From: Dendrophyllia cribrosa
Taxonomy: Eukaryota > Cnidaria > Anthozoa > Scleractinia > Dendrophylliidae
DNA length: 64,000 bases
Reading direction: 5' to 3'
NCBI GenBank assembly: GCA_024195265.1
Contig: JAJLRJ010000001.1
Coordinates: 6,282,857 to 6,346,856 of the forward strand
Shown here: piece after piece, positions 1,444 to 34,426 of the stretch
Layout: each line of letters starts with the position of its first letter
Numbering within the stretch: the stretch's first letter is position 1
Notes under the pieces: generated by a model
What the model saw: the letters and a program-made list of their open reading frames with translations, nothing else
Databases searched by the model: none
Told to the model about the DNA's origin: nothing
Position numbers and translations under genes: made by a program

Positions 1444-1586
1444 GCATGGTGATAGAACAAGAGCTGGAGCCCCTCCTTGCTGGGATAATGACACTGCACA
1501 ATGGGACTGTCTGTTGTCTTCAGCTTCAATCCCTGTCATTAAACATGATACACATGATATCACAGTCAGTAGGCTTTACAGAGATG
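1444..1586 (+). CDS. Histidine acid phosphatase exon A: RHGDR motif
   Basis: The acceptor CAG ends at 1443. The first base G completes an arginine codon and the text continues HGDRTRAGAPPCW, the nucleophile motif of histidine acid phosphatases. Further on come WDCLLSSASIP and a segment ending SRLYRD. The exon ends in phase 1 before GTGTGT and joins the exon at 6213 as RD-V-YMPG. Confidence 0.85.
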
Positions 1587-10500: not shown

Positions 10501-13500
10501 CTAGACCAACACAATGATAGCTTTCACGCGAGCACATGTACATGTATAACCTCTTTGGAAGTCGAAGTCGAGCTCGATGTGGAGGTCGAGGTTGGACTTA
10601 AAATTGAAGTGGAGCTCGAGCTTGTTGATGTCATATTCCCTGACGTAACAGGGCCTCATCGACCGCCGTTTGAACTGCTTGGGAGAAGGCAGAAGCAATC
10701 GACCTTGATCCGACGTGTTTATGTTTTCCCGCGCAATAGATCGCGTGACTTGTCACATGTACGCACACCGATTATGAATTAAAGTTAAATCTAACTTATG
10801 AAGTTAAATCATGGTTTCACTGATATCAAATATTAATGACTTGTTATTTCAAATACGTGTTTTCGTGGTTTCAAATCGGAGGTTAACTAAACCATAAATC
10901 AAGCTTATTAAGTTAAATCATGGTTTCACTGATATCAAATAATGACTTGTTACATGTCAAATAAGTGTTTTCGTGGTTTTAAATCGGAGGTTGACATAAA
11001 TCGCGTGATATCAAATCACAGAGTTGTCGTAGGCTCTTTTCAAATCAACATGTGGTGATTTCAAATCATGAACACATTATTTAAATGACGGGAACTCATT
11101 TGAAATAATAATTTAGTATATGATATCACCAAGTCTTATTTAGTAAATAATGAGAAAAATGACCCAAAAGGAGCTAAATAATTTTTTTACAAACGGCGCT
11201 ATTGCTAATGAGGCTAATACACGTTGCTATTATTTTTACCCCCAGCCATGGATGGGTTGACTCACATAGCTGATTGCCTGCTGACCCATATATGCCACGA
11301 TTTTCCCATCCCGTCTACTGTAACAGAAGATTTAATGGAGCGTATCTCCAGCGAACTAGAATACACTTGGTACGCAACATACAGCTATCCTACTATCGAG
11401 AACTACTCTAAAGTCGGCATCGGCTTTCTGATTGCTGAGATGTGGCAGGTAAGAGGGCACAGGAACCTCACAAATAGGAACATGTATCCCACAAATAGGT
11501 ATACGGCTCCCAAAAATAGGATTGACCAAGAGAAGGGATGCTAGCATGGCTTCGAAGAGTAATGTAATTTACCCAATAATTTGTTTCAGTTGATTAAAGG
11601 GAAGGAAAGGTGACAGATAAACGATAACATCTTACTATTTCTGTTATCTTAGGCAATGCAAGACGTCATAGAAGGAGAAAGATTTGAAAAGTTTTATCTT
11701 TACTCAGGGCACGACCACACAGGTATGGAGAAAAATATAAAGGTTACAATGCAGTTCAGAGATAAGCGAACCACGCAAACCATGTGCACGTTTAAAGCCA
11801 TTCAAACAACAATAAAATACCAACAGTAGTAGTCTGTTCACAGACTTTTCCTTTTGAGCCGAGTTCGCACTCGCACGCGTTCGCTGGGCTAAAAATAAAT
11901 CGAGAATTTAGTTTTATCGACTGAGTCGATAAGGTAAATTGACCACCGTAAAAAGATTCAAATAGCTGACGTTTCGAGCGCTAGCCCTTCGTCGGAGCGA
12001 ATCAAGGAATTGTGGGTAGTGTGTGGTTTATATAGTAAGCGGTGGAGCTACGCTATTGGTGGAAATTTGGTGACGTGAAAAACAAATGTAGATTAGTTGA
12101 ATGAAAAGCGTTCGTTGATTCCGTGGGGTTTGAGAGTGCCGATTTGAAAGATGATTTTTTGTTCTAGGTTTTTACGGCTTTCTGTGTTACCCTGGTGTAG
12201 GGAAAGGCCGCAGATTGTCATGTGTTGTTTAGAATGGTTAGTAAGATTAAAATGGCGCGCGACTGGTTTGGATGCGTCTTTGTCATTTTTTTCAACGTCT
12301 CGGAGATGTTCACGAAAACGGTCGCCCAGTCTCCTCCCTGTTTCGCCAATGTATATCTTTTTGCAAAAAGTACATGTAATGCAGTAGATAACATTTACGG
12401 AGGTGCATGTAAAACGATCAGTGATTTTAATAGATCGTTTGGGTCCTGTTATTTTGTCCGCGTTGTGAATGAAAGGACAAGTGTTACATCGTGTGCGTGT
12501 GCATTTGAAAGTTCCCGGTACATCGTCAGATTTCAGTGCGCTCGTAACTAGAAAGTTGCCTATGTTTTTGTCACGTTTGAATGAAATTAGTGGGGGTTGT
12601 GAAAAAATTCTGCCAGTTTCGGGGTCGTTTTGGAGTAATTTGAAATTTTTTAAAATGATGCTTTTGACTGTGTTGTTGTGTGGGTGGAAAGTGAGGGTGA
12701 ATGGAATTCTCTCGTTCTGTTACTTCTGTTACTTCTGCACTACAAACGCCACAGAAGGAACAGAACGAGAGAATTCCATTCACCCTCACTTTCCACCCAC
12801 ACAACAACACAGTCAAAAGCATCATTTTAAAAAATTTCAAATTACTCCAAAACGACCCCGAAACTGGCAGAATTTTTTCACAACCCCCACTAATTTCATT
12901 CAAACGTGACAAAAACATAGGCAACTTTCTAGTTACGAGCGCACTGAAATCTGACGATGTACCGGGAACTTTCAAATGCACACGCACACGATGTAACACT
13001 TGTCCTTTCATTCACAACGCGGACAAAATAACAGGACCCAAACGATCTATTAAAATCACTGATCGTTTTACATGCACCTCCGTAAATGTTATCTACTGCA
13101 TTACATGTACTTTTTGCAAAAAGATATACATTGGCGAAACAGGGAGGAGACTGGGCGACCGTTTTCGTGAACATCTCCGAGACGTTGAAAAAAATGACAA
13201 AGACGCATCCAAACCAGTCGCGCGCCATTTTAATCTTACTAACCATTCTAAACAACACATGACAATCTGCGGCCTTTCCCTACACCAGGGTAACACAGAA
13301 AGCCGTAAAAACCTAGAACAAAAAATCATCTTTCAAATCGGCACTCTCAAACCCCACGGAATCAACGAACGCTTTTCATTCAACTAATCTACATTTGTTT
13401 TTCACGTCACCAAATTTCCACCAATAGCGTAGCTCCACCGCTTACTATATAAACCACACACTACCCACAATTCCTTGATTCGCTCCGACGAAGGGCTAGC

Positions 13501-16500
13501 GCTCGAAACGTCAGCTATTTGAATCTTTTTACGGTGGTCAATTTACCTTATCGACTCAGTCGATAAAACTAAATTCTCGTGTTTCATCCCCCCACCGACG
13601 CAGCACCACAGTTTCTCTAGAAACTAACCTCATTAAAAATAAATCGGTCTGTAGACAGACTACAACAGTAGGAAATCAATGATTTTGCTCATACATACTA
13701 ATGAACATCCTGAATTCGCCTCTCCAGAAACTGTGGGGAGACTGCATGAGTACCAGCTTTTGTCAATAAGATTTCTGAGTTCGTTTGGGTAAACAATATG
13801 AGCTATGCTTTTGGAAACCATTAACCTATCGTAACTAACGCTGGTTATCCAAACGGTCCCAGAATGCCTAGTGCCGAAAGCTGGTGCTCAGTCTCCCCAC
13901 AGTTTCTGGAGAGGCGAATACGCGTTGTTGGTGTGCGTTAGCAATGCGCAGACGCACGTACGCGCATTATCCGACACGTTATACGCGAACATTTCGGTTC
14001 GCTTATCTCTGATCTGCACTGCATGTTGCTTTTCAGTTCTCTTGGCTATTATAAGGACCACGGGCCCGTTTCTCGAAAGTCCCGATAACTTTTCGGGCCC
14101 CGAAAGCTGTTTTTTGTGCGCAGTATAAGTTGATAAAACAAGTCGGGCTGGTTTGCGGACTAAAAACTACACTTCCATTCTACAGATCTGATTAAAAAAA
14201 TATAGCTCAGGGCCCGAAAAATTGTCGGGGAGTTCGAGAAACGGGCCCCAGATACTGATTTTTTTTCATTTGGAGAAGTAGTTTATTTTATTGTATTTCT
14301 CGTTGAAATACCAGCTTCCAAAGAGATCCGGTGCTTATTGTTCTACCAAACATAATCTACAGAAAGGGGCAGAGAAAGCGAACATATAGGTTGTTTACCA
14401 TTTACACGGGAAAACCGGTTGGTCCACGGTTTGTGTAAATGGTAAGCAGAACTCCAGAAAGGGAAATTCCGTTTGAGATTGGCGTGTACCATTTACCATT
14501 TGACACCAGAAACAAGCTGAGTAACCACGCTTACGCATCAAAACTGGCGCTGGGCCTGGAACTGGTAGATAAAAGCAAATGGTACACACATTTTCGTTCG
14601 GAAATTCCGGTTGGGGATTTTGGACTACCTTTCAAGAAATCCCGTTTTCCCGTGGAAATTTCCGTTCGGGAAGAAAAAAATAGTCTTCCCATTTACATTC
14701 CATCCGAAATTTCCGGATTTTTTGGGTAAATGGTAAACAACCATTGAATCGGGAGGGAAAGGGAAAGAGGGGAAAGAATTCTCTATTTTCGAATTGCCCA
14801 TAATGCACTTTGTTTGCCCCCCAAATTTTGCATAAACTGCTGTTTGTAAATGCTCTTGGGAGGACTGCATATTCCCAAGAGCATTTCAAAACAATAGTTT
14901 ATGCAAAATTTTGGGGGCAAACAAAGTGTATTATGGGCAATTTGAAAATAGAGAATTCGAGTTCAAATCCCAAACGATCGCAACAATGCTACAGTTCCAA
15001 TGCCACAAACACGCATGAGTCAGCCCCTTTAATACTGCAGTTCAGTCAGGTGATGCTTTGCCATCCGGATCACGAATTTTAGCTTTCAATGAGGGCGTGT
15101 TCTTAACTGTTTCAAGTACAAAAAAAACGCTCGTTACCAAGAGACTATGATCATAGTTTCTTGTCGTTACGGAATCGGGGATGGATATTTCAGCTGTAAC
15201 TTGGCAAGGCTTGGCATTTTTGGTGATTGGCTTTGCGCGATTTCCGAAATTTTAAAAGTACTGACGCACAACATCATACGTCAAATGTTTTAACATTTGA
15301 CAATAACAATATTGTTGAACTTAAAAGTTCAACAGTATTGTCCAGCAGAACTGTAGAAGTATTCTGTTTTCTTGTATTTCAAAGGTTTTCATGTAGAAAT
15401 ATTACTATTACCAATATACATAGCTTGCCCTGACTATTTTTCATAAAGAACCATGAAAGTTCAAATAACCTGGCCCTCTTTTAGGAAAATATCCCTTTGG
15501 CTCTCATAGACTAAATTTCGAACAAAGCCTGTTTGTCGACTGCCTGAAGTTCATTCAGGGGAAATCTCTCTAAAGCGGTGACCCTTTGTGTCTGACAAAT
15601 GGGTGGTCATTTATAGGAGATGATTGCTAACGAGAGAAGATCAGATAAGAGTGAATCAGCACAGAACATCATCATAATATCAGATAAGAGCGAATCAGCA
15701 CAGAACATCATCATAATATCAGATAAGAGTGAATCAGCACAGACCATCATCATAATATCAGATAAGAGTGAATCAGCACAGAACATCATCATAATATCAG
15801 ATAAGAGTGAATCAGCACAGAAGATCATCATAATATCAGATAAGAGTGAATCAGCACAGAACATCATCATAATATCAGATAAGAGTGAATCAGCACAGAA
15901 CATCATCATAATATCAGATAAGAGTGAATGAATCAGCACAGAACATCATCATAATATCAGATAAGAGTGAATCAGCACAGAACATCATCATAATATCAGA
16001 TAAGAGTGAATCAGCACAGACCATCATCATAATATCAGATAAGAGTGAATCAGCACAGAACATCATCATAATATCAGATAAGAGTGAATCAGCACAGAAC
16101 ATCATCATAATATCAGATAAGAGTGAATCAGCACAGAACATCATCATAATATCAGATAAGAGTGAATCAGCACAGAACATCATCATAATATCAGATAAGA
16201 GTGAATCAGCACAGAACATCATCATAATATCAGATAAGAGTGAATCAGCACAGAACATCATCATAATATCAGATAAGAGTGAATCAGCACAGAACATCAT
16301 CATAATATCAGATAAGAGTGAATCAGCACAGACCATCATCATAATATCAGATAAGAGTGAATCAGCACAGAACATCATCATAATATCAGATAAGAGTGAA
16401 TCAGCACAGAACATCATCATAATATCAGATAAGAGTGAATCAGCACAGAACATCATCATAATATCAGATAAGAGTGAATCAGCACAGAACATCATCATAA

Positions 16501-19500
16501 TATCAGATAAGAGTGAATCAGCACAGAACATCATCATAATATCAGATAAGAGTGAATCAGCACAGAACATCATCATAATATCAGATAAGAGTGAATCAGC
16601 ACAGAACATCATCATAATATCAGATAAGAGTGAATCAGCACAGAACATCATCATAATATCAGATAAGAGTGAATCAGCACAGAACATCATCATAATATCA
16701 GATAAGAGTGAATCAGCACAGAACATCATCATAATATCAGATAAGAGTGAATCAGCACAGAACATCATCATAATATCAGATAAGAGTGAATCAGCACAGA
16801 ACATCATCATAATATCAGATAAGAGTGAATCAGCACAGAACATCATCATAATATCAGATAAGAGTGAATCAGCACAGAACATCATCATAATATCAGATAA
16901 GAGTGAATCAGCACAGACCATCATCATAATATCAGATAAGAGTGAATCAGCACAGAACATCATCATAATATCAGATAAGAGTGAATCAGCACAGAACATC
17001 ATCATAATATCAGATAAGAGTGAATCAGCACAGAACATCATCATAATATCAGATAAGAGTGAATCAGCACAGAACATCATCATAATATCAGATAAGAGTG
17101 AATCAGCACAGAACATCATCATAATATCAGATAAGAGTGAATCAGCACAGAACATCATCATAATATCAGATAAGAGTGAATCAGCACAGAACATCATCAT
17201 AATATCAGATAAGAGTGAATCAGCACAGACCATCATCATAATATCAGATAAGAGTGAATCAGCACAGACCATCATCATAATATCAGATAAGAGTGAATCA
17301 GCACAGAACATCATCATAATATCAGATAAGAGTGAATCAGCACAGACCATCATCATTATATCAGATAAGAGTGAATCAGCACAGAACATCATCATAATAT
17401 CAGATAAGAGTGAATCAGCACAGACCATCATCATAATATCAGATAAGAGTGAATCAGCACAGAACATCATCATAATATCAGATAAGAGTGAATCAGCACA
17501 GACCATCATCATTATATCAGATAAGAGTGAATCAGCACAGACCATCATCATTATATCAGATAAGAGTGAATCAGCACAGACCATCATCATTATATCAGAT
17601 AAGAGTGAATCAGCACAGACCATCATCATTATATCAGATAAGAGTGAATCAGCACAGAACATCATCATAATATCAGATAAGAGTGAATCAGCACAGAACA
17701 TCATCATAATATCAGATAAGAGTGAATCAGCACAGACCATCATCATAATATCAGATAAGAGTGAATCAGCACAGACCATCATCATTATATCAGATGAGAG
17801 TGAATCAGCACAGACCATCATCATAATATCAGATAAGAGTGAATCAGCACAGACCATCATCATTATATCAGATAAGAGTGAATCAGCACAGAACATCATC
17901 ATAATATCAGGAAAGAGTGAATCAGCACAGACCATCATCATAATATCAGATAAGAGTGAATCAGCACAGAACATCATCATAATATCAGATAAGAGTGAAT
18001 CAGCACAGACCATCATCATAATATCAGATAAGAGTGAATCAGCACAGAACATCATCATAATATCAGATAAGAGTGAATCAGCACAGACCATCATCATAAT
18101 ATCAGATAAGAGTGAATCAGCACAGAACATCATCATAATATCAGGTAAGAGTGAATCAGCACAGACCATCATCATAATATCAGATAAGAGTGAATCAGCA
18201 CAGACCATCATCATAATATCAGATAAGAGTGAATTAGCACAGAACATCATCATAATATCAGGTAAGAGTGAATCAGCACAGACCATCATCATAATATCAG
18301 ATAAGAGTGAATCAGCACAGAACATCATCATTATATCAGATAAGAGTGAATCAGCACAGAACATCATCATAATATCAGATAAGAGTGAATCAGCACAGAA
18401 CATCATCATAATATCAGATAAGAGTGAATCAGCACAGAACATCATCATAATATCAGATAAGAGTGAATCAGCACAGAACATCATCATAATATCAGATAAG
18501 AGTGAATCAGCACAGAACATCATCATAATATCAGATAAGAGTGAATCAGCACAGAACATCATCATAATATCAGATAAGAGTGAATCAGCACAGAACATCA
18601 TCATAATATCAGATAAGAGTGAATCAGCACAGAACATCATCATAATATCAGATAAGAGTGAATCAGCACAGAACATCATCATAATATCAGATAAGAGTGA
18701 ATCAGCACAGACCATCATCATAATATCAGATAAGAGTGAATCAGCACAGAACATCATCATAATATCAGATAAGAGTGAATCAGCACAGAACATCATCATA
18801 ATATCAGATAAGAGTGAATCAGCACAGAACATCATCATAATATCAGATAAGAGTGAATCAGCACAGAACATCATCATAATATCAGATAAGAGTGAATCAG
18901 CACAGAACATCATCATAATATCAGATAAGAGTGAATCAGCACAGAACATCATCATAATATCAGATAAGAGTGAATCAGCACAGAACATCATCATAATATC
19001 AGATAAGAGTGAATCAGCACAGACCATCATCATAATATCAGATAAGAGTGAATCAGCACAGACCATCATCATAATATCAGATAAGAGTGAATCAGCACAG
19101 AACATCATCATAATATCAGATAAGAGTGAATCAGCACAGACCATCATCATTATATCAGATAAGAGTGAATCAGCACAGAACATCATCATAATATCAGATA
19201 AGAGTGAATCAGCACAGACCATCATCATAATATCAGATAAGAGTGAATCAGCACAGAACATCATCATAATATCAGATAAGAGTGAATCAGCACAGACCAT
19301 CATCATTATATCAGATAAGAGTGAATCAGCACAGACCATCATCATTATATCAGATAAGAGTGAATCAGCACAGACCATCATCATTATATCAGATAAGAGT
19401 GAATCAGCACAGACCATCATCATTATATCAGATAAGAGTGAATCAGCACAGAACATCATCATAATATCAGATAAGAGTGAATCAGCACAGAACATCATCA

Positions 19501-22500: not shown

Positions 22501-25500
22501 TCATAATATCAGATAAGAGTGAATCAGCACAGACCATCATCATAATATCAGGTAAGAGTGAATCAACACAGAACATCATCATAATATCAGATGAGAGTGA
22601 ATCAGCACAGACCATCATCATAATATCAGATAAGAGTGAATCAGCACAGAACATCATCATAATATCAGATAAGAGTGAATCAGCACAGACCATCATCATA
22701 ATATCAGATAAGAGTGAATCAGCACAGACCATCATCATAATATCAGATAAGAGTGAATCAGCACAGAACATCATCATAATATCAGATAAGAGTGAATCAG
22801 CACAGACCATCATCATAATATCAGATAAGAGTGAATCAGCACAGAACATCATCATAATATCAGATAAGAGTGAATCAGCACAGACCATCATCATAATATC
22901 AGATAAGAGTGAATCAGCACAGACCATCATCATAATATCAGATAAGAGTGAATCAGCACAGACCATCATCATAATATCAGGTAAGAGTGAATCAGCACAG
23001 AACATCATCATAATATCAGATAAGAGTGAATCAGCACAAACCATCATCATAATATCAGATAAGAGTGAATCAGCACAGACCATCATCATAATATCAGATA
23101 AGAGTGAATCAGCACAGACCATCATCATAATATCAGATAAGAGTGAATCAGCACAGAACATCATCATAATATCAGATAAGAGTGAATCAGCACAGACCAT
23201 CATCATAATATCAGATAAGAGTGAATCAGCACAGAACATCATCATTATATCAGATAAGAGTGAATCAGCACAGAACATCATCATAATATCAGATAAGAGT
23301 GAATCAGCACAGAACATCATCATAATGTGTAGTTCCAGAAAATATCCAGTCCCCTACCACGGAGGGAATTTCAAACAGGACCCCCCACCCCTTCGGATTT
23401 TCCATTTTCACAAGGAAACGTTGACCCCCCCCCACCCCTCTGGAATTTCCACAGAAATATTGCCCACCCCCCATACCCTCTGGAAAGTTTTTTTCTTCCT
23501 TTAGACAGGGCATCCGACAGGATGCGGTGGTGCGGATCCGCGTAATTCTCTAATTTCCGCATCCTCTGCATGTTCCGAGCATTTTCCACATAAAACTGAA
23601 AAATTTGCCCAATATTAACGATAAAGCAGCTGTGAACCTTCGTCACAAACATAAAAGCCGAAGAGATTGATTATTTTGAAGCAGGTTTTCTCCTAAACAT
23701 TGACGAAAAAACTCCGCTTTGTTCACGAGCGATTTTTAACCTGCAGGCGTTCCACGCGTCTGTTGGCGATGAGCCTGGATTCTAGAGAGAGACTGGTAAT
23801 GAGTAATGGTGGGTTTATCTGCTTCACGAAAGGTATTCGTCTTCAATTGTTTCTAGTTTGCGTCCGAAGAACTTTTAAGAAAGAGAAAAACGTTTCTTAA
23901 CTGCAGCATGGTTGGGAAAAACGCAGGTTGTCTGATTTATTTACGACCCGCAAAAATTAGTAAGTGACACTTACGGAGTCAATACGAATTCACGAAAAAT
24001 CAATCGTTTTCCCGACCATTCGGACGCGAATTTTGCCTCCAAACCCCCCTCCCCTTCGGAATTTCCTGGGCCATTGACCCCCCCACCCCTCCGGAATTTC
24101 CAATTCCCTCCGTGGTGGGGGTCTGGATATTTTCTGGAACTACACAATATCAGATAAGAGTGAATCAGCACAGACCATCATCATAATATCAGATAAGAGT
24201 GAATCAGCACAGACCATCATCATTATATCAGATAAGAGTGAATCAGCACAGAACATCATCATAATATCAGATAAGAGTGAATCAGCACAGAACATCATCA
24301 TAATATCAGATAAGAGTGAATCAGCACAGAACATCATCATAATATCAGATAAGAGTGAATCAGCACAGAACATCATCATAATATCAGATAAGAGTGAATC
24401 AGCACAGAACATCATCATAATATCAGATAAGAGTGAATCAGCACACAACATCATCATAATATCAGATAAGAGTGAATCAGCACAGAACATCATCATAATA
24501 TCAGATAAGAGTGAATCAGCACAGAACATCATCATAATATCAGATAAGAGTGAATCAGCACAGAACATCATCATAATATCAGATAAGAGTGAATCAGCAC
24601 AGACCATCATCATAATATCAGATAAGAGTGAATCAGCACAGAACATCATCATAATATCAGATAAGAGTGAATCAGCACAGAACATCATCATAATATCAGA
24701 TAAGAGTGAATCAGCACAGAACATCATCATAATATCAGATAAGAGTGAATCAGCACAGAACATCATCATAATATCAGATAAGAGTGAATCAGCACAGAAC
24801 ATCATCATAATATCAGATAAGAGTGAATCAGCACAGAACATCATCATAATATCAGATAAGAGTGAATCAGCACAGAACATCATCATAATATCAGATAAGA
24901 GTGAATCAGCACAGACCATCATCATAATATCAGATAAGAGTGAATCAGCACAGAACATCATCATAATATCAGATAAGAGTGAATCAGCACAGAACATCAT
25001 CATAATATCAGATAAGAGTGAATCAGCACAGAACATCATCATAATATCAGATAAGAGTGAATCAGCACAGACCATCATCATAATATCAGATAAGAGTGAA
25101 TCAGCACAGAACATCATCATAATATCAGATAAGAGTGAATCAGCACAGAACATCATCATAATATCAGATAAGAGTGAATCAGCACAGACCATCATCATTA
25201 TATCAGATAAGAGTGAATCAGCACAGAACATCATCATAATATCAGATAAGAGTGAATCAGCACAGAACATCATCATAATATCAGATAAGAGTGAATCAGC
25301 ACAGAACATCATCATAATATCAGATAAGAGTGAATCAGCACAGACCATCATCATAATATCAGATAAGAGTGAATCAGCACAGAACATCATCATAATATCA
25401 GATAAGAGTGAATCAGCACAGACCATCATCATAATATCAGATAAGAGTGAATCAGCACAGACCATCATCATAATATCAGATAAGAGTGAATCAGCACAGA

Positions 25501-28500
25501 CCATCATCATAATATCAGATAAGAGTGAATCAGCACAGAACATCATCATAATATCAGATAAGAGTGAATCAGCACAGACCATCATCATAATATCAGATAA
25601 GAGTGAATCAGCACAGACCATCATCATAATATCAGATAAGAGTGAATCAGCACAGACCATCATCATAATATCAGATAAGAGTGAATCAGCACAGACCATC
25701 ATCATAATATCAGATAAGAGTGAATCAGCACAGAACATCATCATAATATCAGATAAGAGTGAATCAGCACAGAACATCATCATAATATCAGATAAGAGTG
25801 AATCAGCACAGAACATCATCATAATATCAGATAAGAGTGAATCAGCACAGACCATCATCATAATATCAGATAAGAGTGAATCAGCACAGACCATCATCAT
25901 AATATCAGATAAGAGTGAATCAGCACAGACCATCATCATAATATCAGATAAGAGTGAATCAGCACAGAACATCATCATAATATCAGATAAGAGTGAATCA
26001 GCACAGACCATCATCATAATATCAGATAAGAGTGAATCAGCACAGAACATCATCATAATATCAGATAAGAGTGAATCAGCACAGAACATCATCATAATAT
26101 CAGATAAGAGTGAATCAGCACAGACCATCATCATTATATCAGATAAGAGTGAATCAGCACAGACCATCATCATAATATCAGATAAGAGTGAATCAGCACA
26201 GACCATCATCATTATATCAGATAAGAGTGAATCAGCACAGAACATCATCATAATATCAGATAAGAGTGAATCAGCACAGACCATCATCATAATATCAGAT
26301 AAGAGTGAATCAGCACAGACCATCATCATAATATCAGATAAGAGTGAATCAGCACAGAACATCATCATAATATCAGATAAGAGTGAATCAGCACAGAACA
26401 TCATCATAATATCAGATAAGAGTGAATCAGCACAGAACATCATCATAATATCAGATAAGAGTGAATCAGCACAGACCATCATCATTATATCAGGTAAGAG
26501 TGAATCAGCACAGAACATCATCATAATATCAGATAAGAGTGAATCAGCACAGACCATCATCATAATATCAGATAAGAGTGAATCAGCACAGAACATCATC
26601 ATAATATCAGATAAGAGTGAATCAGCACAGAACATCATCATAATATCAGATAAGAGTGAATCAGCACAGACCATCATCATAATATCAGATAAGAGTGAAT
26701 CAGCACAGACCATCATCATAATATCAGATAAGAGTGAATCAGCACAGAACATCATCATAATATCAGGTAAGAGTGAATCAGTACAGACCATCATCATAAT
26801 ATCAGATAAGAGTGAATCAGCACAGAACATCATCATAATATCAGATAAGAGTGAATCAGCACAGAACATCATCATAATATCAGATAAGAGTGAATCAGCA
26901 CAGACCATCATCATAATATCAGATAAGAGTGAATCAGCACAGACCATCATCATAATATCAGATAAGAGTGAATCAGCACAGAACATCATCATAATATCAG
27001 ATAAGAGTGAATCAGCACAGACCATCATCATAATATCAGATAAGAGTGAATCAGCACAGACCATCATCATAATATCAGATAAGAGTGAATCAGCACAGAA
27101 CATCATCATAATATCAGATAAGAGTGAATCAGCACAGAACATCATCATAATATCAGATAAGAGTGAATCAGCACAGACCATCGTCATAATATCAGATAAG
27201 AGTGAATCAGCACAGACCATCATCATAATATCAGATAAGAGTGAATCAGCACAGAACATCATCATAATATCAGGTAAGAGTGAATCAGCACAGAACATCA
27301 TCATAATATCAGATAAGAGTGAATCAGCACAGAACATCATCATAATATCAGATAAGAGTGAATCAGCACAGACCATCATCATAATATCAGATAAGAGTGA
27401 ATCAGCACAGACCATCATCATAATATCAGATAAGAGTGAATCAGCACAGAACATCATCATAATATCAGATAAGAGTGAATCAGCACAGAACATCATCATT
27501 ATATCAGATAAGAGTGAATCAGCACAGACCATCATCATAATATCAGATAAGAGTGAATCAGCACAGAACATCATCATAATATCAGATAAGAGTGAATCAG
27601 CACAGACCATCATCATTATATCAGATAAGAGTGAATCAGCACAGAACATCATCATAATATCAGATAAGAGTGAATCAGCACAGAACATCATCATAATATC
27701 AGATAAGAGTGAATCAGCACAGAACATCATCATAATATCAGATAAGAGTGAATCAGCACAGACCATCATCATAATATCAGATAAGAGTGAATCAGCACAG
27801 AACATCATCATAATATCAGATAAGAGTGAATCAGCACAGACCATCATCATAATATCAGATAAGAGTGAATCAGCACAGACCATCATCATAATATCAGATA
27901 AGAGTGAATCAGCACAGACCATCATCATAATATCAGATAAGAGTGAATCAGCACAGAACATCATCATAATATCAGATAAGAGTGAATCAGCACAGACCAT
28001 CATCATAATATCAGATAAGAGTGAATCAGCACAGACCATCATCATAATATCAGATAAGAGTGAATCAGCACAGACCATCATCATAATATCAGATAAGAGT
28101 GAATCAGCACAGACCATCATAATATCAGGTAAGAGTGAATCAGCACAGAACATCATCATAATATCAGATAAGAGTGAATCAGCACAGAACATCATCATAA
28201 TATCAGATAAGAGTGAATCAGCACAGACCATCATCATAATATCAGATAAGAGTGAATCAGCACAGACCATCATCATAATATCAGATAAGAGTGAATCAGC
28301 ACAGAACATCATCATAATATCAGATAAGAGTGAATCAGCACAGAACATCATCATTATATCAGATAAGAGTGAATCAGCACAGAACATCATCATAATATCA
28401 GATAAGAGTGAATCAGCACAGACCATCATCATAATATCAGATAAGAGTGAATCAGCACAGACCATCATCATAATATCAGATAAGAGTGAATCAGCACAGA

Positions 28501-31500
28501 ACATCATCATAATATCAGATAAGAGTGAATCAGCACAGAACATCATCATTATATCAGATAAGAGTGAATCAGCACAGAACATCATCATAATATCAGATAA
28601 GAGTGAATCAGCACAGACCATCATCATAATATCAGATAAGAGTGAATCAGCACAGACCATCATCATAATATCAGATAAGAGTGAATCAGCACAGAACATC
28701 ATCATAATATCAGATAAGAGTGAATCAGCACAGAACATCATCATTATATCAGATAAGAGTGAATCAGCACAGACCATCATCATAATATCAGATAAGAGTG
28801 AATCAGCACAGAACATCATCATTATATCAGATAAGAGTGAATCAGCACAGACCATCATCATAATATCAGATAAGAGTGAATCAGCACAGACCATCATCAT
28901 AATATCAGATAAGAGTGAATCAGCACAGAACATCATCATAATATCAGATAAGAGTGAATCAGCACAGACCATCATCATAATATCAGATAAGAGTGAATCA
29001 GCACAGACCATCATCATTATATCAGATAAGAGTGAATCAGCACAGAACATCATGATAATATCAGGTAAGAGTGAATCAGCACAGAACATCATCATAATAT
29101 CAGGTAAGAGTGAATCAGCACAGACCATCATCATAATATCAGATAAGAGTGAATCAGCACAGAACATCATCATAATTTCAGATAAGAGTGAATCAGCACA
29201 GACCATCATCATAATATCAGATAAGAGTGAATCAGCACAGACCATCATCATAATATCAGATAAGAGTGAATCAGCACAGACCATCATCATAATATCAGAT
29301 AAGAGTGAATCAGCACAGAACATCATCATAATATCAGATAAGAGTGAATCAGCACAGAACATCATCATAATATCAGATAAGAGTGAATCAGCACAGAACA
29401 TCATCATAATATCAGATAAGAGTGAATCAGCACAGACCATCATCATAATATCAGGTAAGAGTGAATCAGCACAGAACATCATCATAATATCAGATAAGAG
29501 TGAATCAGCACAGACCATCATCATAATATCAGATAAGAGTGAATCAGCACAGACCATCATCATAAAATCAGATAAGAGTGAATCAGCACAGACCATCATC
29601 ATAATATCAGATAAGAGTGAATTAGCACAGAACATCATCATAATATCAGGTAAGAGTGAATCAGCACAGACCATCATCATAATATCAGATAAGAGTGAAT
29701 CAGCACAGAACATCATCATAATATCAGATAAGAGTGAATCAGCACAGAACATCATCATAATATCAGATAAGAGTGAATCAGCACAGACCATCATCATAAT
29801 ATCAGATAAGAGTGAATCAGCACAGACCATCATCATAATATCAGGTAAGAGTGAATCAGCACAGAACATCATCATAATATCAGATAAGAGTGAATCAGCA
29901 CAGACCATCATCATAATATCAGATAAGAGTGAATCAGCACAGACCATCATCATAATATCAGATAAGAGTGAATCAGCACAGAACATCATCATAATATCAG
30001 GTAAGAGTGAATCAGCACAGAACATCATAATATCAGATAAGAGTGAATCAGCACAGAACATCATCATAATATCAGATAAGAGTGAATCAGCACAGACCAT
30101 CATCATAATATCAGATAAGAGTGAATCAGCACAGACCATCATCATAATATCAGATAAGAGTGAATCAGCACAGAACATCATCATAATATCAGATAAGAGT
30201 GAATCAGCACAGAACATCATCATTATATCAGATAAGAGTGAATCAGCACAGACCATCATCATAATATCAGATAAGAGTGAATCAGCACAGAACATCATCA
30301 TTATATCAGATAAGAGTGAATCAGCACAGACCATCATCATAATATCAGATAAGAGTGAATCAGCACAGACCATCATCATAATATCAGATAAGAGTGAATC
30401 AGCACAGAACATCATCATAATATCAGATAAGAGTGAATCAGCACAGACCATCATCATTATATCAGATAAGAGTGAATCAGCACAGACCATCATCATAATA
30501 TCAGATAAGAGTGAATCAGCACAGACCATCATCATTATATCAGATAAGAGTGAATCAGCACAGAACATCATCATAATATCAGGTAAGAGTGAATCAGCAC
30601 AGAACATCATCATAATATCAGGTAAGAGTGAATCAGCACAGACCATCATCATAATATCAGATAAGAGTGAATCAGCACAGACCATCATCATTATATCAGG
30701 TAAGAGTGAATCAGCACAGAACATCATCATAATATCAGATAAGAGTGAATCAGCACAGACCATCATCATAATATCAGATAAGAGTGAATCAGCACAGACC
30801 ATCATCATAATATCAGATAAGAGTGAATCAGCACAGAACATCATCATAATATCAGATAAGAGTGAATCAGCACAGAACATCATCATAATATCAGATAAGA
30901 GTGAATCAGCACAGACCATCATCATTATATCAGATAAGAGTGAATCAGCACAGACCATCATCATAATATCAGATAAGAGTGAATCAGCACAGACCATCAT
31001 CATTATATCAGATAAGAGTGAATCAGCACAGAACATCATCATAATATCAGGTAAGAGTGAATCAGCACAGAACATCATCATAATATCAGGTAAGAGTGAA
31101 TCAGCACAGACCATCATCATAATATCAGATAAGAGTGAATCAGCACAGACCATCATCATAATATCAGATAAGAGTGAATCAGCACAGAACATCATCATAA
31201 TATCAGGTAAGAGTGAATCAGCACAGAACATCATAATATCAGATAAGAGTGAATCAGCACAGAACATCATCATAATATCAGATAAGAGTGAATCAGCACA
31301 GACCATCATCATAATATCAGATAAGAGTGAATCAGCACAGACCATCATCATAATATCAGATAAGAGTGAATCAGCACAGAACATCATCATAATATCAGAT
31401 AAGAGTGAATCAGCACAGAACATCATCATTATATCAGATAAGAGTGAATCAGCACAGACCATCATCATAATATCAGATAAGAGTGAATCAGCACAGAACA

Positions 31501-34426
31501 TCATCATTATATCAGATAAGAGTGAATCAGCACAGACCATCATCATAATATCAGATAAGAGTGAATCAGCACAGACCATCATCATAATATCAGATAAGAG
31601 TGAATCAGCACAGAACATCATCATAATATCAGATAAGAGTGAATCAGCACAGACCATCATCATTATATCAGATAAGAGTGAATCAGCACAGACCATCATC
31701 ATAATATCAGATAAGAGTGAATCAGCACAGACCATCATCATTATATCAGATAAGAGTGAATCAGCACAGAACATCATCATAATATCAGGTAAGAGTGAAT
31801 CAGCACAGAACATCATCATAATATCAGGTAAGAGTGAATCAGCACAGACCATCATCATAATATCAGATAAGAGTGAATCAGCACAGACCATCATCATTAT
31901 ATCAGGTAAGAGTGAATCAGCACAGAACATCATCATAATATCAGATAAGAGTGAATCAGCACAGACCATCATCATAATATCAGATAAGAGTGAATCAGCA
32001 CAGAACATCATCATAATATCAGATAAGAGTGAATCAGCACAGAACATCATCATAATATCAGATAAGAGTGAATCAGCACAGACCATCATCATAATATCAG
32101 ATAAGAGTGAATCAGCACAGACCATCATCATAATATCAGATAAGAGTGAATCAGCACAGAACATCATCATAATATCAGATAAGAGTGAATCAGCACAGAC
32201 CATCATCATTATATCAGATAAGAGTGAATCAGCACAGAACATCATCATAATATCAGATAAGAGTGAATCAGCACAGACCATCATCATAATATCAGATAAG
32301 AGTGAATCAGCACAGAACATCATCATAATATCAGATAAGAGTGAATCAGCACAGACCATCATCATAATATCAGATAAGAGTGAATCAGCACAGAACATCA
32401 TCATAATATCAGATAAGAGTGAATCAGCACAGACCATCATCATAATATCAGATAAGAGTGAATCAGCACAGAACATCATCATAATATCAGATAAGAGTGA
32501 ATCAGCACAGACCATCATCATAATATCAGATAAGAGTGAATCAGCACAGACCATCATCATAATATCAGATAAGAGTGAATCAGCACAGAACATCATCATA
32601 ATATCAGATAAGAGTGAATCAGCACAGAACATCATCATAATATCAGATAAGAGTGAATCAGCACAGAACATCATCATAATATCAGATAAGAGTGAATCAG
32701 CACAGAACATCATCATAATATCAGATAAGAGTGAATCAGCACAGAACATCATCATAATATCAGATAAGAGTGAATCAGCACAGACCATCATCATTATATC
32801 AGATAAGAGTGAATCAGCACAGAACATCATCATAATATCAGATAAGAGTGAATCAGCACAGAACATCATCATAATATCAGATAAGAGTGAATCAGCACAG
32901 ACCATCATCATTATATCAGATAAGAGTGAATCAGCACAGAACATCATCATAATATCAGATAAGAGTGAATCAGCACAGACCATCATCATTATATCAGATA
33001 AGAGTGAATCAGCACAGAACATCATCATAATATCAGGTAAGAGTGAATCAGCACAGAACATCATCATAATATCAGATAAGAGTGAATCAGCACAGAACAT
33101 CATCATAATATCAGATAAGAGTGAATCAGCACAGACCATCATCATAATATCAGATAAGAGTGAATCAGCACAGAACATCATCATAATATCAGGTAAGAGT
33201 GAATCAGCACAGACCATCATCATAATATCAGATAAGAGTGAATCAGCACAGACCATCATCATTATATCAGATAAGAGTGAATCAGCACAGACCATCATCA
33301 TTATATCAGATAAGAGTGAATCAGCACAGAACATCATCATAATATCAGGTAAGAGTGAATCAGCACAGAACATCATCATAATATCAGATAAGAGTGAATC
33401 AGCACAGAACATCATCATTGTCCCCCTTGTCTATTCTTCTTTGGTCTCCTACGAGAGTGGACACTTGGAGAAATTTAAGTGTACAATGCCACCTGTATTT
33501 AGCGGACACCAGCTTGATTCCATAAAATGTATTCCCATATTTACTTTAAAACGAACCTGTATTCAGCAGACCCCTTTATTAAGCGGACGCGGACACCAAA
33601 ACTAATCCATTTTGTTACACGAAACCTGTATTAAGTGGACGCTTTTCAAGTGTTTTTAGAATGCATCAGTTTTAATTAGATTATGGGATTACTATTTACT
33701 AAAAGCGTTTCTTTTTCGGTAATTAAGTTATTCAACTTGATACGGCCTGTTGCATGAAATTTGGGTATAATAAAAGTGAATAATTATGTATTATTGCTCA
33801 ATTTATTAGAACATGTATGAAGCGGACATCTTGCCTGCGAATACAGCCGCCTCTTATCGCTCCAGGCCGCTAGGGGTGTTTGCAGGCTAGCGGACACCCT
33901 GTATTAAGCAAGCACTTACGAGGGTCCCGAGGCGGAGGTAAACGTGCATTTAAATGAAATTTGAAGAGGTTTAAAGATGGCCGGAAAGAAGAAAGAAAAA
34001 GCCATGTCAAGTGGCGGCAAAATGGCGTTCATGTGGACCCCGCCTTAATACAGGTTTAATACAGGTTTAATACTGGTTAAATACAGGTTTTCAGTGTAGT
34101 TTTGTTTTCTTTCTGTAGTGATGCCATTCCTCCAAGCCTTCAACGCTAGCGATTACAAGTGGAGTCCGTACGCTTCCATGGTGCAGTTGGAGCTACTCGA
34201 GGTCGTTAACTCCACAAACACGGACTATGCCGTCAGGCTGCTCTACCAAGGACAGGAACGGCGCATTCCTTACTGCAAGAGCTCGCCATGCACTATAGCT
34301 GAATTTGGCGAGTACGTCCGCACAATTACTCCTCAAGACCCTGCTACGGATTGTAAGGTGACCAAACCGGACATCATGGCTGGACCACACCCACCACTTG
34401 TAGGCAGAAATCGAGCGCTGTTCTAA
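1444..34426 (+). CDS. Histidine acid phosphatase, ACP6/PXYLP1-like (8 exons, 5' incomplete)
   Basis: The protein should hydrolyse phosphomonoesters through a phosphohistidine intermediate. Relatives act on lysophosphatidic acid (ACP6) or on the phosphorylated xylose of the proteoglycan linker (PXYLP1). Joining 1444-1586, 6213-6383, 7122-7141, 7495-7613, 8903-9033, 11246-11448, 11653-11722 and 34119-34426 gives one frame of 387 residues, with every intron GT-AG and every phase matching. Landmarks in order: R-HGDRTRAG (nucleophile histidine; the initial R is completed across the upstream junction), the LTFKGYKQQ helix, LRKAYV and FLSP, the second arginine in DMSRTRQSAQAL, and YLYSGHDHTV (catalytic HD) followed by KWSPYA. 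The last three blocks resemble human ACP6 from memory. Residue three after RHGDR is R where P is usual. Family members are longer, so an N-terminal segment with any signal peptide is missing. The substrate is not known. Confidence 0.85.
1587..2236. other. Intron sequence, nothing coding
   Basis: First part of the 4.6-kb intron between the RHGDR exon and the exon at 6213. It contains a C tract (about 1792-1809) and AT-rich text. No element boundaries were recognised before the inverted-repeat element that begins near 2237. Confidence 0.5.
2237..3726. mobile_element. MITE of the AGAGCAGTTTTCA family, split by a later insertion
   Basis: The left end (AGAGAAGTTTTCAGTCGAG) and right end (TTGATTGAAAACTGCTTT) are inverted. 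The interior after 3456 matches the copies at 61011-61294 and 40316-40793: ATTGGTTTTGGTTTTCTTCT, TGATTGGTTGAGAAAGTGGCG and AGCCAATCACAAAG. The copy is broken after base 2266 by the element at 2267-3455. Confidence 0.7.
2267..3455. mobile_element. CAGGGATT-ended DNA element (hAT-like ends) inserted into a MITE
   Basis: Ends CAGGGATTAATTCTGACAGGG-like on the left and CCCTGTCAGAATCCCTG on the right are inverted repeats. Both subterminal regions hold many copies of TTGTGCGGGA. TAAAAT flanks both sides and occurs once in intact MITE relatives, which suggests a 6-bp duplication. CAGGG ends suggest the hAT group, whose duplications are normally 8 bp, so the class is uncertain. A short stretch on the + strand (about 3092-3270) begins MSGKRQ and may be a transposase remnant, but it is frameshifted. 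Confidence 0.7.
3727..3855. repeat. Short AT-rich segment with a TATTG microsatellite
   Basis: Contains ATTGTATTGTATTGTAT near 3764-3780 and AT-rich text. The same pentamer follows a retroposon-like tail near 36520. Confidence 0.5.
3856..5725. mobile_element. TTAACCCATTC-ended inverted-repeat element with a nested element
   Basis: The left end TTAACCCATTCACTCCT (3856) is mirrored by AGGAGCGAATGGGTTAA ending at 5725. TTAA is at both tips. The interior is non-coding apart from short chance ORFs. A second element sits inside at 4137-4989. The right TTAA is shared with the left end of the neighbouring element at 5722. Confidence 0.6.
4137..4989. mobile_element. Nested Tc1/mariner-pogo-like non-autonomous element (TA-flanked)
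   Basis: The ends TACCGTATTTTCCGGTGTAT and ATACACCGGAAAATACGGTA are near-perfect inverted repeats. The motif CCGGTGTATAAG is repeated subterminally at both ends. TA at 4137-4138 and 4988-4989 fits the TA target of the Tc1/mariner superfamily. No transposase frame is visible. Confidence 0.65.
5722..6119. mobile_element. Small TTAA-flanked MITE
   Basis: TTAAAGGGACACTGTCA on the left is mirrored by TGACAGTGCCCCTTTAA on the right. It is about 400 bp long and has no long frame. A TTAA target is typical of piggyBac-mobilised elements. The class is inferred only from the target and termini. Confidence 0.6.
6213..6383 (+). CDS. Histidine acid phosphatase exon B
   Basis: The acceptor AG is at 6211-6212, after a T-rich tract. 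TT completes valine with the previous G. The product includes DCGLGHLTFKGYKQQ, NGENLRKAYVDTGFLSP and HEDFFRTD, which match conserved helices of the ACP6/PXYLP1 type. The donor is GTAAGT at 6384, phase 1. An apparent start at 6200 belongs to the intron. Confidence 0.85.
7122..7141 (+). CDS. 20-nt microexon of the histidine acid phosphatase gene
   Basis: A phase-1 donor at 6383 and a phase-0 acceptor at 7494 require a connecting exon. ATATGTCAAGAACAAGACAG lies between AAAG and GTTAGT. It turns the join into FFRTD-D-MSRTRQ-SAQALG, which restores the conserved second arginine and the spacing to the SAQAL helix. The length, phase and residues all fit, but no transcript was available. Confidence 0.8.
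7495..7613 (+). CDS. Histidine acid phosphatase exon D
   Basis: TTTACAG precedes it and GTAAGT follows. It encodes SAQALGLAMFPPPSPSPGKAQ and a short acidic stretch ending EPNPR, with the arginine split by the intron (phase 2). Its frame is open only in the phase supplied by the 20-nt microexon. Confidence 0.85.
7614..8902. other. Intron with one small MITE
   Basis: Intron between the FPPPSPSPG exon and the exon at 8903. The only recognised element is the MITE at 8055-8225. The remainder shows no convincing coding segment or ordered repeat. Confidence 0.6.
8055..8225. mobile_element. 171-bp TTAA-flanked MITE
   Basis: TTAAGGGCCCACCTTCACCC on the left is mirrored by GGGTGAAGGTGGGCCTTTAA on the right. 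The interior is about 120 bp of non-coding text. It lies inside the phosphatase intron. Confidence 0.7.
8903..9033 (+). CDS. Histidine acid phosphatase exon E
   Basis: The acceptor is TTTGCAG and the donor GTAAGT. The exon encodes LCPKLDQYEREFFASDMWKK, then HYAEQTGPLLDEVRKALGLK and YDL, an amphipathic helical segment of the alpha domain. It ends in phase 1. Confidence 0.85.
9304..11199. mobile_element. 1.9-kb foldback element with arms of nearly 0.9 kb
   Basis: GCGCCGTTTGTAAAAAAATT at the left is mirrored at the right end. The inverted similarity continues inwards to about 10189 on the left and 10311 on the right, leaving a loop of roughly 120 bp. Each arm has an internal direct duplication of about 100 bp (CCTCCGATTT-AAACCACGAAAACAC text). 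Mirrored ORFs of 60-75 codons appear in both arms and are probably not genes. There is no transposase. It fills most of the intron before the exon at 11246. Confidence 0.75.
11246..11448 (+). CDS. Histidine acid phosphatase exon F
   Basis: The acceptor CCCCAG ends at 11245 and the donor GTAAGA begins at 11449. The codon split with the previous exon gives T, then MDGLTHIADCLLTHICHDF, later ELEYTWYATYSYP and GIGFLIAEMWQ. It ends in phase 0. Confidence 0.85.
11653..11722 (+). CDS. Histidine acid phosphatase exon G: catalytic HD
   Basis: Encodes AMQDVIEGERFEKFYLYSGH and DHT. GHD is the conserved C-terminal motif that supplies the proton-donor aspartate. The exon ends in phase 1 (ACA-G) before GTATGG. 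The next exon is 22.4 kb away and begins TG, giving V and then MPFLQAF. Confidence 0.85.
12093..12728 (-). pseudogene. GIY-YIG endonuclease domain of a Penelope-like element, left arm
   Basis: Mirror copy of the + strand frame in the right arm. It is open on the minus strand from about 12728 to the stop at 12093-12095 and lacks a start codon, because a TAA lies in the loop at 12729-12731. It should encode the same GIY-YIG text (IYIGETGRRLGDRFREHL). The reverse transcriptase part is absent, so it is a 5'-truncated fragment. Confidence 0.7.
12740..13387 (+). pseudogene. GIY-YIG endonuclease domain of a Penelope-like element, right arm
   Basis: Penelope-like retroelements carry a reverse transcriptase followed by a GIY-YIG nuclease that nicks target DNA. 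Here only the C-terminal part is present. A nominal ATG at 12701 crosses the palindrome centre and is not a real start. Counting from it, a cysteine cluster (CTRTRCNTCPF) precedes NVIYC at about residue 129 and IYIGETGRRLGDRFREHL at about 142. Later come ARHFNLTNHS and the acidic RKNLEQKI, then a short tail ending at the TAA at 13385-13387. The GIY and YIG signatures are conserved as IY and YIG. No RT motif lies upstream. Confidence 0.8.
13714..13919. mobile_element. MITE with CTCTCCAGAAACTGTGGGGA termini
   Basis: The left text ATTCGCCTCTCCAGAAACTG and right text CAGTTTCTGGAGAGGCGAAT are exact inverted repeats, extending inwards for about 45 bp. It is 206 bp long and non-coding. Confidence 0.7.
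14062..14249. mobile_element. MITE with GGGCCCGTTTCTCGAA termini
   Basis: GGGCCCGTTTCTCGAAAGTC on the left pairs with GAGTTCGAGAAACGGGCCC on the right, and internal GGGCCCGAAAA text is also mirrored. It is 188 bp, with no coding content. Confidence 0.7.
14389..14742. mobile_element. MITE with GGTTGTTTACCATTTAC termini
   Basis: GGTTGTTTACCATTTAC (14389) is mirrored by GTAAATGGTAAACAACC (ending 14742). Inside, the motif ACCATTTAC recurs with GGAAATTCCG blocks in both orientations. It is 354 bp. The ORFs here are low-complexity readings of the repeat. Confidence 0.7.
14776..14958. mobile_element. 183-bp near-complete hairpin MITE
   Basis: GAATTCTCTATTTTC at the left is mirrored by GAAAATAGAGAATTC at the right. 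Pairing continues through GCCCATAAT-CACTTTGTTTG text to a short centre near 14867. Almost the whole element is one hairpin. Confidence 0.75.
14959..15640. other. Intron segment before the satellite, nothing recognised
   Basis: Unique-looking AT-rich text. It contains a small palindrome around AACAATATTGTT near 15304-15315 and no coding segment that can be supported. Confidence 0.5.
15641..23326 (+). repeat. 39-bp satellite array, first block (about 197 units)
   Basis: Head-to-tail copies of a 39-bp unit with core CAGATAAGAGTGAATCAGC and a (CAT)n-like end. Variation is nearly confined to a few sites: GAACATC or GACCATC, CATAATA or CATTATA, and GATAAG replaced by GGTAAG, GAAAAG or GATGAG. A 4-bp duplication near 15927 shifts the frame once. 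The unit is 13 codons with stop-free frames on both strands. Rare variants recur at offsets that are whole multiples of 39, showing higher-order duplication. The array lies in the last phosphatase intron. Confidence 0.97.
23327..24145. mobile_element. 819-bp inverted-repeat element inserted in the satellite
   Basis: GTGTAGTTCCAGAAAATATC on the left is mirrored by GATATTTTCTGGAACTACAC on the right. Subterminal CCCC(A)CCCC and GGAATTTCC motifs occur at both ends. AAT at 23324-23326 and 24146-24148 flanks the element, while uninterrupted units have it once, so insertion made a 3-bp duplication. The interior has no recognisable protein. Confidence 0.8.
24146..33419 (+). repeat. 39-bp satellite array, second block (about 238 units)
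   Basis: The same unit and orientation as the first block, resuming within the interrupted unit. GGTAAG variants are common towards the right half. Three units lack 3 bp (near 28121, 30021 and 31227). The last two are 1,206 bp apart, equal to 30 full units plus one 36-bp unit, so a segment of about 31 units has been duplicated. The array ends at CATCATCAT before unrelated sequence at 33420. Confidence 0.97.
33420..34118. repeat. Degenerate repeat rich in CCTGTATTAAGCGGAC motifs, 3' end of the large intron
   Basis: Variants of CTGTATT(A/C/T)AGCGGAC occur several times between 33490 and 33910, some beside GGACACC. At 34045-34105 the motif AATACAGGTTT is repeated about four times. The text ends with a good polypyrimidine tract and TAG acceptor (TTTTCTTTCTGTAG) before the last phosphatase exon. 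Confidence 0.6.
34119..34426 (+). CDS. Histidine acid phosphatase terminal exon
   Basis: Begins TG, completing V after GHDHT. It encodes MPFLQAFNASDYKWSPYASM, VQLELLEV, YAVRLLYQGQERRIPYC and CTIAEFGEYVRTITP, ending GRNRALF and TAA. The KWSPYA block and the cysteine pair resemble the C-terminus of ACP6-like phosphatases. A 3' UTR follows to at least 34800. Confidence 0.88.

Follow-up and report, generated by a model that had tools for sequence, protein, structure and literature searches.

A 39-bp minisatellite array makes up most of a 22.4-kb intron in a predicted histidine acid phosphatase gene of the coral Dendrophyllia cribrosa

The coding sequence of a predicted histidine acid phosphatase of the coral Dendrophyllia cribrosa is split, just past its catalytic HD motif, by a 22.4-kb intron that consists for the most part of a nearly uniform 39-bp tandem repeat. 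The stretch analysed here, called the window, comprises 64,000 nucleotides of contig JAJLRJ010000001.1, and all positions refer to it (Table 1). We propose, with a probability of roughly 0.85, that the array is a lineage-specific intronic minisatellite, presumably of recent growth, which would be transcribed within the pre-mRNA and discarded together with the intron. The locus provides a clean coral case of a coding sequence divided by a large near-uniform tandem array with both sides intact.

Gene structure and identity of the product

On the forward strand, eight visible exons separated by introns that all have GT-AG borders form a single open frame of 387 amino acids down to the stop codon. 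The product matches the Pfam family PF00328 (histidine phosphatase branch 2) with 89.7 bits for a gathering score of 23.6 (E 3.3e-25). Twelve PDB sequences were matched as well, ten of them named acid phosphatase and one lysophosphatidic acid phosphatase, the weakest being another protein, SAKeCEref; the nearest are prostatic acid phosphatases (best E 3.4e-24). We take an N-terminal RHGXRXP-type motif and a C-terminal HD motif to be the marks of this branch. In the product, HGDR occupies residues 1-4 and the HD motif corresponds to H282 and D283, both nearly invariant in a 16-row protein alignment. The Arg preceding HGDR is encoded by an exon outside the window and is present in the homolog P0001; the N-terminal motif, RHGDRTR, is devoid of the final Pro of RHGXRXP, as it is in most coral relatives.

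Of 1284 candidates in the protein search, 22 are homologs at E<=0.001, the best being a Porites lobata protein of 444 aa (80% identity over 100% of the query). The relatives from Oculina, Acropora and Actinia bear the name counting factor 60-like, and the one from Nematostella that of counting factor 60. The gene product is, as predicted from these matches, a counting-factor-60-like histidine acid phosphatase (histidine phosphatase superfamily, branch 2). Among the literature matches listed, none was by its title a coral paper on counting factor 60 or histidine acid phosphatase. The seven residues of micro-exon 3 are identical in P0001, P0003-P0007 and P0009. The 56-57 N-terminal residues of P0001 are matchless in the window upstream of 1442, so our exon numbers count visible exons only, and the numbers 7 and 8 given in an earlier note to the exons bordering the large intron hold in this sense.

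Table 1. Features of the window, with their positions, strand and the basis or characteristics of each
Feature	Position	Strand	Basis or characteristics
Visible exon 1 (HGDRTRAG..., catalytic N-terminal motif)	1444..1586	+	GT-AG borders, open frame; tblastn with P0001
Visible exon 2	6213..6383	+	GT-AG borders, open frame; tblastn
Visible exon 3, 20-nt micro-exon (DMSRTRQ)	7122..7141	+	GT-AG borders, open frame; below tblastn detection (too short)
Visible exon 4	7495..7613	+	GT-AG borders, open frame; tblastn
Visible exon 5	8903..9033	+	GT-AG borders, open frame; tblastn
Visible exon 6, donor CAG/GTAAGAG	11246..11448	+	GT-AG borders, open frame; tblastn
Visible exon 7, ending with GHDHT and the first base of a split Val codon	11653..11722	+	GT-AG, open frame; tblastn
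Phase-1 intron, 22,396 bp	11723..34118	+	GT-AG; splits the Val codon two residues past the HD motif (H282 D283)
Near-perfect palindrome, 1.68 kb	11901..13579		829-nt arms, 1 mismatch, 21-nt spacer; begins 178 bp into the intron
39-bp minisatellite array, 435 monomers	15640..33418	+	Tandem Repeats Finder; monomer count
819-bp element in the array	23327..24145		49-bp terminal inverted repeats, 92% complementary; AAT on both sides
Visible exon 8, terminal coding exon (VMPFLQAF... stop)	34119..34426	+	GT-AG, open frame; tblastn

The exon 7/8 junction

Exon 7 ends with ...GGG CAC GAC CAC ACA G before the donor GTATGG, and exon 8, preceded by ...TTTCTGTAG, starts with TG ATG CCA. The earlier note had placed the first boundary just after GHDHT and the second at the remainder of a split valine codon, and it was right to the base. 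Its description of a 22.4-kb intron, three quarters of it (17 kb) satellite, between two intact exons agrees equally well with our measurements: the intron has the length given in Table 1, the array minus its insert amounts to about 16,957 bp (75.7% of the intron), and both exons are in frame with GT-AG borders. The frame of exon 7, if continued into the intron, stays open for 35 codons before the first stop.

Fifteen of the 22 homologs were aligned with the window protein (alignment A1; P0015-P0019, P0021 and P0022 were left out), and in 14 of these 15 the protein crosses the junction gap-free. The sole exception is P0008, a gene model of Desmophyllum pertusum, whose deposited version misses the HD-motif stretch (EIWEVSHA...ILQAF). 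Four of the homologs that cross it, P0003-P0006, come from contigs of 1.8-1.95 kb which, judging by their length, look like transcripts. Because the protein is continuous over the junction in 14 of the 15 homologs, removal of the intron would be needed to make the enzyme. The claim that splicing must cross the array is supported to this extent, and splicing of the intron itself is presumed. An exon 8 supplied by a second gene copy inside the window was considered and ruled out, since tblastn with four relatives returned a single copy of each detectable exon and no rival exon 8 in the window. The product of exon 8 has 102 residues, which is 23% of the 444-aa P. lobata relative, and the earlier statement that a failed splice would remove the C-terminal third of the fold was overstated.

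Gene models are likely to break at long introns such as this one, which should serve as a warning for annotation. The available part of one report describes a coral annotation pipeline that tests splitting alignments at introns >5 kb (PMC10236652).

Growth of the intron

One homolog outside the alignment gives an indication of the former size of the intron. P0021, whose reading frame of 319 aa lies on a contig of 1,802 bases, resembles, by eye, an Acropora palmata protein. Between SGHDNT and VMPLLLALNASD it reads straight through 118 additional codons, an in-frame open stretch of 354 nt (a multiple of three) that begins with Gly-Glu, as expected from GGTGAG. P0021 appears to retain the same intron in the same place and would then be either genomic DNA or a retained-intron transcript. 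As its intron seems to measure 354 nt, the enlargement to 22.4 kb is most likely peculiar to the lineage of the window, a comparison that involves this single sequence. The ancestral phase-1 intron just past the HD motif would have had a few hundred bases, and it would have swelled as transposable elements inserted and as the 39-bp minisatellite expanded, by slippage or by the unequal exchange of blocks, to some 435 copies.

Between the array and exon 8, scattered CCTGTATTAAGCGGACACC-like motifs were seen by eye (33480-34090), and an 11-bp tandem, TTAATACAGGT, lies directly ahead of the exon 8 acceptor (34045-34090).

Composition of the array

The array unit is ATCAGATAAGAGTGAATCAGCACAGAACATCATCATAAT (39 bp). 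The monomer spacing is 39 in 429 cases, 36 in three, 43 in one and 861 in one, the latter corresponding to the element insertion. There are 24 monomer types overall and 202 of the 435 monomers are identical to the consensus; the mean identity to the consensus is 98.1% over 431 monomers, the four monomers preceding an indel spacing being excluded from this figure. With units in the range of 10-100 bp lying wholly within one intron, the array is an intronic minisatellite. No other copy of the unit was found on the forward strand of the 64-kb window when up to 3 substitutions were allowed in a 17-base core. An exact 24-mer of the unit had 0 matches in IMG/VR and 0 in GTDB contigs, collections of viral and prokaryotic sequences in which a coral repeat would hardly be expected.

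Along the array, blocks of monomer types recur in the same order; the longest spans 32 monomers and recurs with a displacement of 46 monomers, others span 27 and 22, and identical consensus units follow one another in runs of up to 14. Of the 13 singleton types, 5 lie in the outer 20 monomers, an enrichment with a one-sided Fisher p of 1.2e-4 for a cut-off picked after the order was seen. Block repeats and edge singletons would fit unequal exchange or slippage in blocks.

The length of the array is that of one assembly, and such arrays easily end up collapsed or expanded, so that an artefact could be suspected in which the array is of wrong length or misplaced and the true intron is far shorter. 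We judge this improbable: ordered blocks of 24 monomer types, edge variants and an insert flanked by AAT are hard to obtain by misassembly, and the flanking exons are ordered and in frame.

Splicing and polyadenylation signals

The sense strand of the array contains 31 donor-like sites, CAGGTAAG, as against 0 in the rest of the intron. Their pairing with the 5' end of U1 was computed: the GGTAAG variant of the array reaches -11.1 kcal/mol, compared with -8.2 for the exon 7 donor and -11.2 for the exon 6 donor, and the other five donors range from -6.1 to -9.9. Outside short margins around the array, its insert and the intron ends, 2158 AGs were scanned in the array and 269 in the remaining intron; 0 of the former and 28 of the latter have at least 14 pyrimidines at -23 to -4. 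This measure is crude, as the pyrimidine maximum is 12 in the array and 11-16 in the eight real acceptors (two have only 11 and 13), and the ranges overlap. The hexamers AATAAA and ATTAAA are absent from the array (0) and occur eight times in the rest of the intron, seven times upstream of the array and once downstream. The array RNA is predicted to fold weakly, a 195-nt piece reaching -16.1 kcal/mol when four other pieces of the intron lie between -34.3 and -63.5.

We suggest that exons 7 and 8 would be recognised locally, by exon definition, the array donors being left without a partner acceptor. The array may be tolerated because its sense strand offers neither a good acceptor nor a poly(A) hexamer, and the 31 donor-like sites could not define an exon. 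With donor sites in many units, a lack of good acceptors as judged by simple measures and a long palindrome close to the true donor, the locus could serve as a natural test of whether exon definition suffices for splicing to get across DNA of this type. These signal features are no evidence of selection or adaptation, because composition alone yields them: among 4000 dinucleotide-preserving shuffles of the unit, 98.5% are without poly(A) hexamers, 93% have an acceptor no better than the 10 pyrimidines of the consensus unit, both strands stay open in 60%, and all of these features coincide in 54%. Selection as the cause of the missing hexamers, acceptors and stops was rejected on the last of these figures.

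The array might also impair the gene, many transcripts failing at the intron by skipping, early termination or retention, and less enzyme being made. This possibility is compatible with the proposal of a transcribed and excised minisatellite, and we regard it as unlikely. As described in the available part of the report, human ABCA7 has a 25-bp intronic VNTR of up to 10,678 bp, whose longer versions go along with reduced expression and with more frequent skipping of the exon that follows (PMC5954066), and three features of the coral intron might act in the same direction: an exon 7 donor that pairs less with U1 than the GGTAAG variant at its 31 sites, the seven poly(A)-signal hexamers that precede the array, and a very long pre-mRNA hairpin (829 nt) that the palindrome could form 178 nt past the exon 7 donor. 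However, the ABCA7 array begins at the donor itself, whereas the coral array begins 3.9 kb from it (PMC5954066), and exon 8 gives no clear indication of relaxed constraint, though the array may be too young for a visible decay.

Concerning this constraint, identity to P. lobata is 76% for exon 8 and 81% for exons 1-7. Private changes in exon 8 were counted for the window and P. lobata with eight of the 15 aligned homologs as outgroups; the window has fewer in 6 comparisons, an equal number in 1 (P0010) and more in 1 (P0011, 7 vs 3), rows which are not independent since the outgroups are related. Eight columns of exon 8 are invariant over all 16 alignment rows, three of them cysteines.

Coding potential of the array

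The frames of the array stay open over hundreds of copies (2530 and 3175 aa on the forward strand, 2479 and 3096 aa on the reverse strand, flanks included), which raises the question of a coding gene for a 13-aa repeat protein. A 163-aa piece of the forward frame even matches the Pfam CAP160 repeat (E 7.3e-07, 29.3 bits vs a cut-off of 25), with no single stretch passing, and we take this to be a low-complexity match. The idea is hardly credible and was rejected. Met is missing from the consensus forward frame and occurs in one unit, and the 17 substitution types, of which 13 are non-synonymous, 4 synonymous and 0 stop vs 87:23:7 possible, fit neutral change. Open frames on both strands are, moreover, common among the unit shuffles described above. 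As a protein query, the array ORF found none at E 0.001 among the 7985 candidates scored, which is weak evidence of absence.

The array could also be conceived as a reservoir of in-frame exons, from which a rare splice would give enzyme variants of graded length. The intron is of phase 1, the unit of 39 is a multiple of three and the sole open sense frame is the frame of phase-1 exons, so that joining CAG/ATAAGAG...CAG/GTAAGAG would add 13n residues (DKSESAQNIIIIS) right past the catalytic HD loop without frameshift or stop; the 31 units of the CAGGTAAGAG type would supply donors identical over ten letters to the real donor of exon 6. We nevertheless consider such a reservoir very improbable, as the array has no good acceptor, the repeat occurs in no protein among the candidates scored and the match of frames is a one-in-three chance.

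Comparison with known intronic arrays

The earlier note implied that a large satellite within a gene is a rarity, a view which finds no support in the published arrays of kl-3/kl-5, CACNA1C, ABCA7 and other human loci (PMC6508621, PMC13131567, PMC5954066, PMC2588610); the comparisons made here draw on the available parts of these reports. Large intronic arrays are already known from flies and humans, and the coral array is a striking but ordinary case of intron growth. By title, no coral case of an intronic array was present among the literature matches listed.

In Drosophila, kl-3 and kl-5 have introns with megabases of satellite which are transcribed (PMC6508621), and the available part of another report holds co-transcriptional splicing to be important for genes such as these (PMC11207136). 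The coral intron resembles them in carrying satellite DNA in an intron that is presumably transcribed, and differs in that theirs are Y-linked megabases of simple repeats, e.g. AATAT, as against 17 kb of a 39-bp unit in an intron of 22.4 kb, well short of megabase size (PMC6508621). The human CACNA1C array (TRACT), with 30-bp units over 3-30+ kb, is likewise a short-unit array inside an intron of an expressed gene, with unit variants one base apart, and its authors argue that perfect-repeat tracts drive expansion (PMC13131567). The unit sequence, host and gene are different, the unit is of 30 bp there and 39 bp in the coral, and allele lengths are known for CACNA1C (PMC13131567). ABCA7 intron 18 also has a minisatellite with donor sites (25 bp, up to ~427 copies) between coding exons (PMC5954066). 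In that array the first GT is the real donor, whereas the coral array lies 3.9 kb downstream of its donor and carries the donor-like variant in 31 of the 435 units (PMC5954066). Several other large human tandem arrays are locus-specific and, as here, wholly within an intron; these are human loci, for which the available part of the source gives no splicing analysis (PMC2588610). Finally, a 188-nt satellite of Porites, in the part of its description available, sits in intergenic regions and differs from the 39-bp unit.

Insert, palindromes and other elements

We read the 819-bp insert as a DNA-transposon-like element that would have landed in a pre-existing array. The arms of the 11901-13579 palindrome carry head-to-head ORFs of GIY-YIG type, of 208 aa on the reverse strand and 228 aa on the forward strand. 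For the forward ORF, the one used for the Pfam and protein searches, 2759 of 2853 candidates are relatives at E<=0.001; Pfam on four of these relatives gave GIY-YIG alone, which does not name the element. The palindrome presumably derives from a transposable element, and it may belong to a Penelope-like retroelement.

A search of the window against Rfam gave no family at or above its gathering score. Between 11700 and 15700, 19 matches below gathering score were recorded up to E 1, of which 16 are microRNA hairpin models, mostly on the palindromes, and the other three a sodium riboswitch, SIB_RNA and Histone3; all 19 were set aside as chance or mere hairpins, and no hammerhead ribozyme was among them. 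The Histone3 match, a histone 3' stem-loop model at 13605-13650, scores 23.8 bits vs 34 (E 0.002) and is sub-threshold. Further along the window, at 57112-58134, a 340-aa open frame is without Pfam match.

A second large palindrome, imperfect and made of several arm segments that are 84-100% complementary, extends over 9304-11199 within the preceding long intron (9034-11245), so that the two large palindromes flank exons 6 and 7. A small foldback with 86-nt arms, 92% complementary, lies at 14776-14958.
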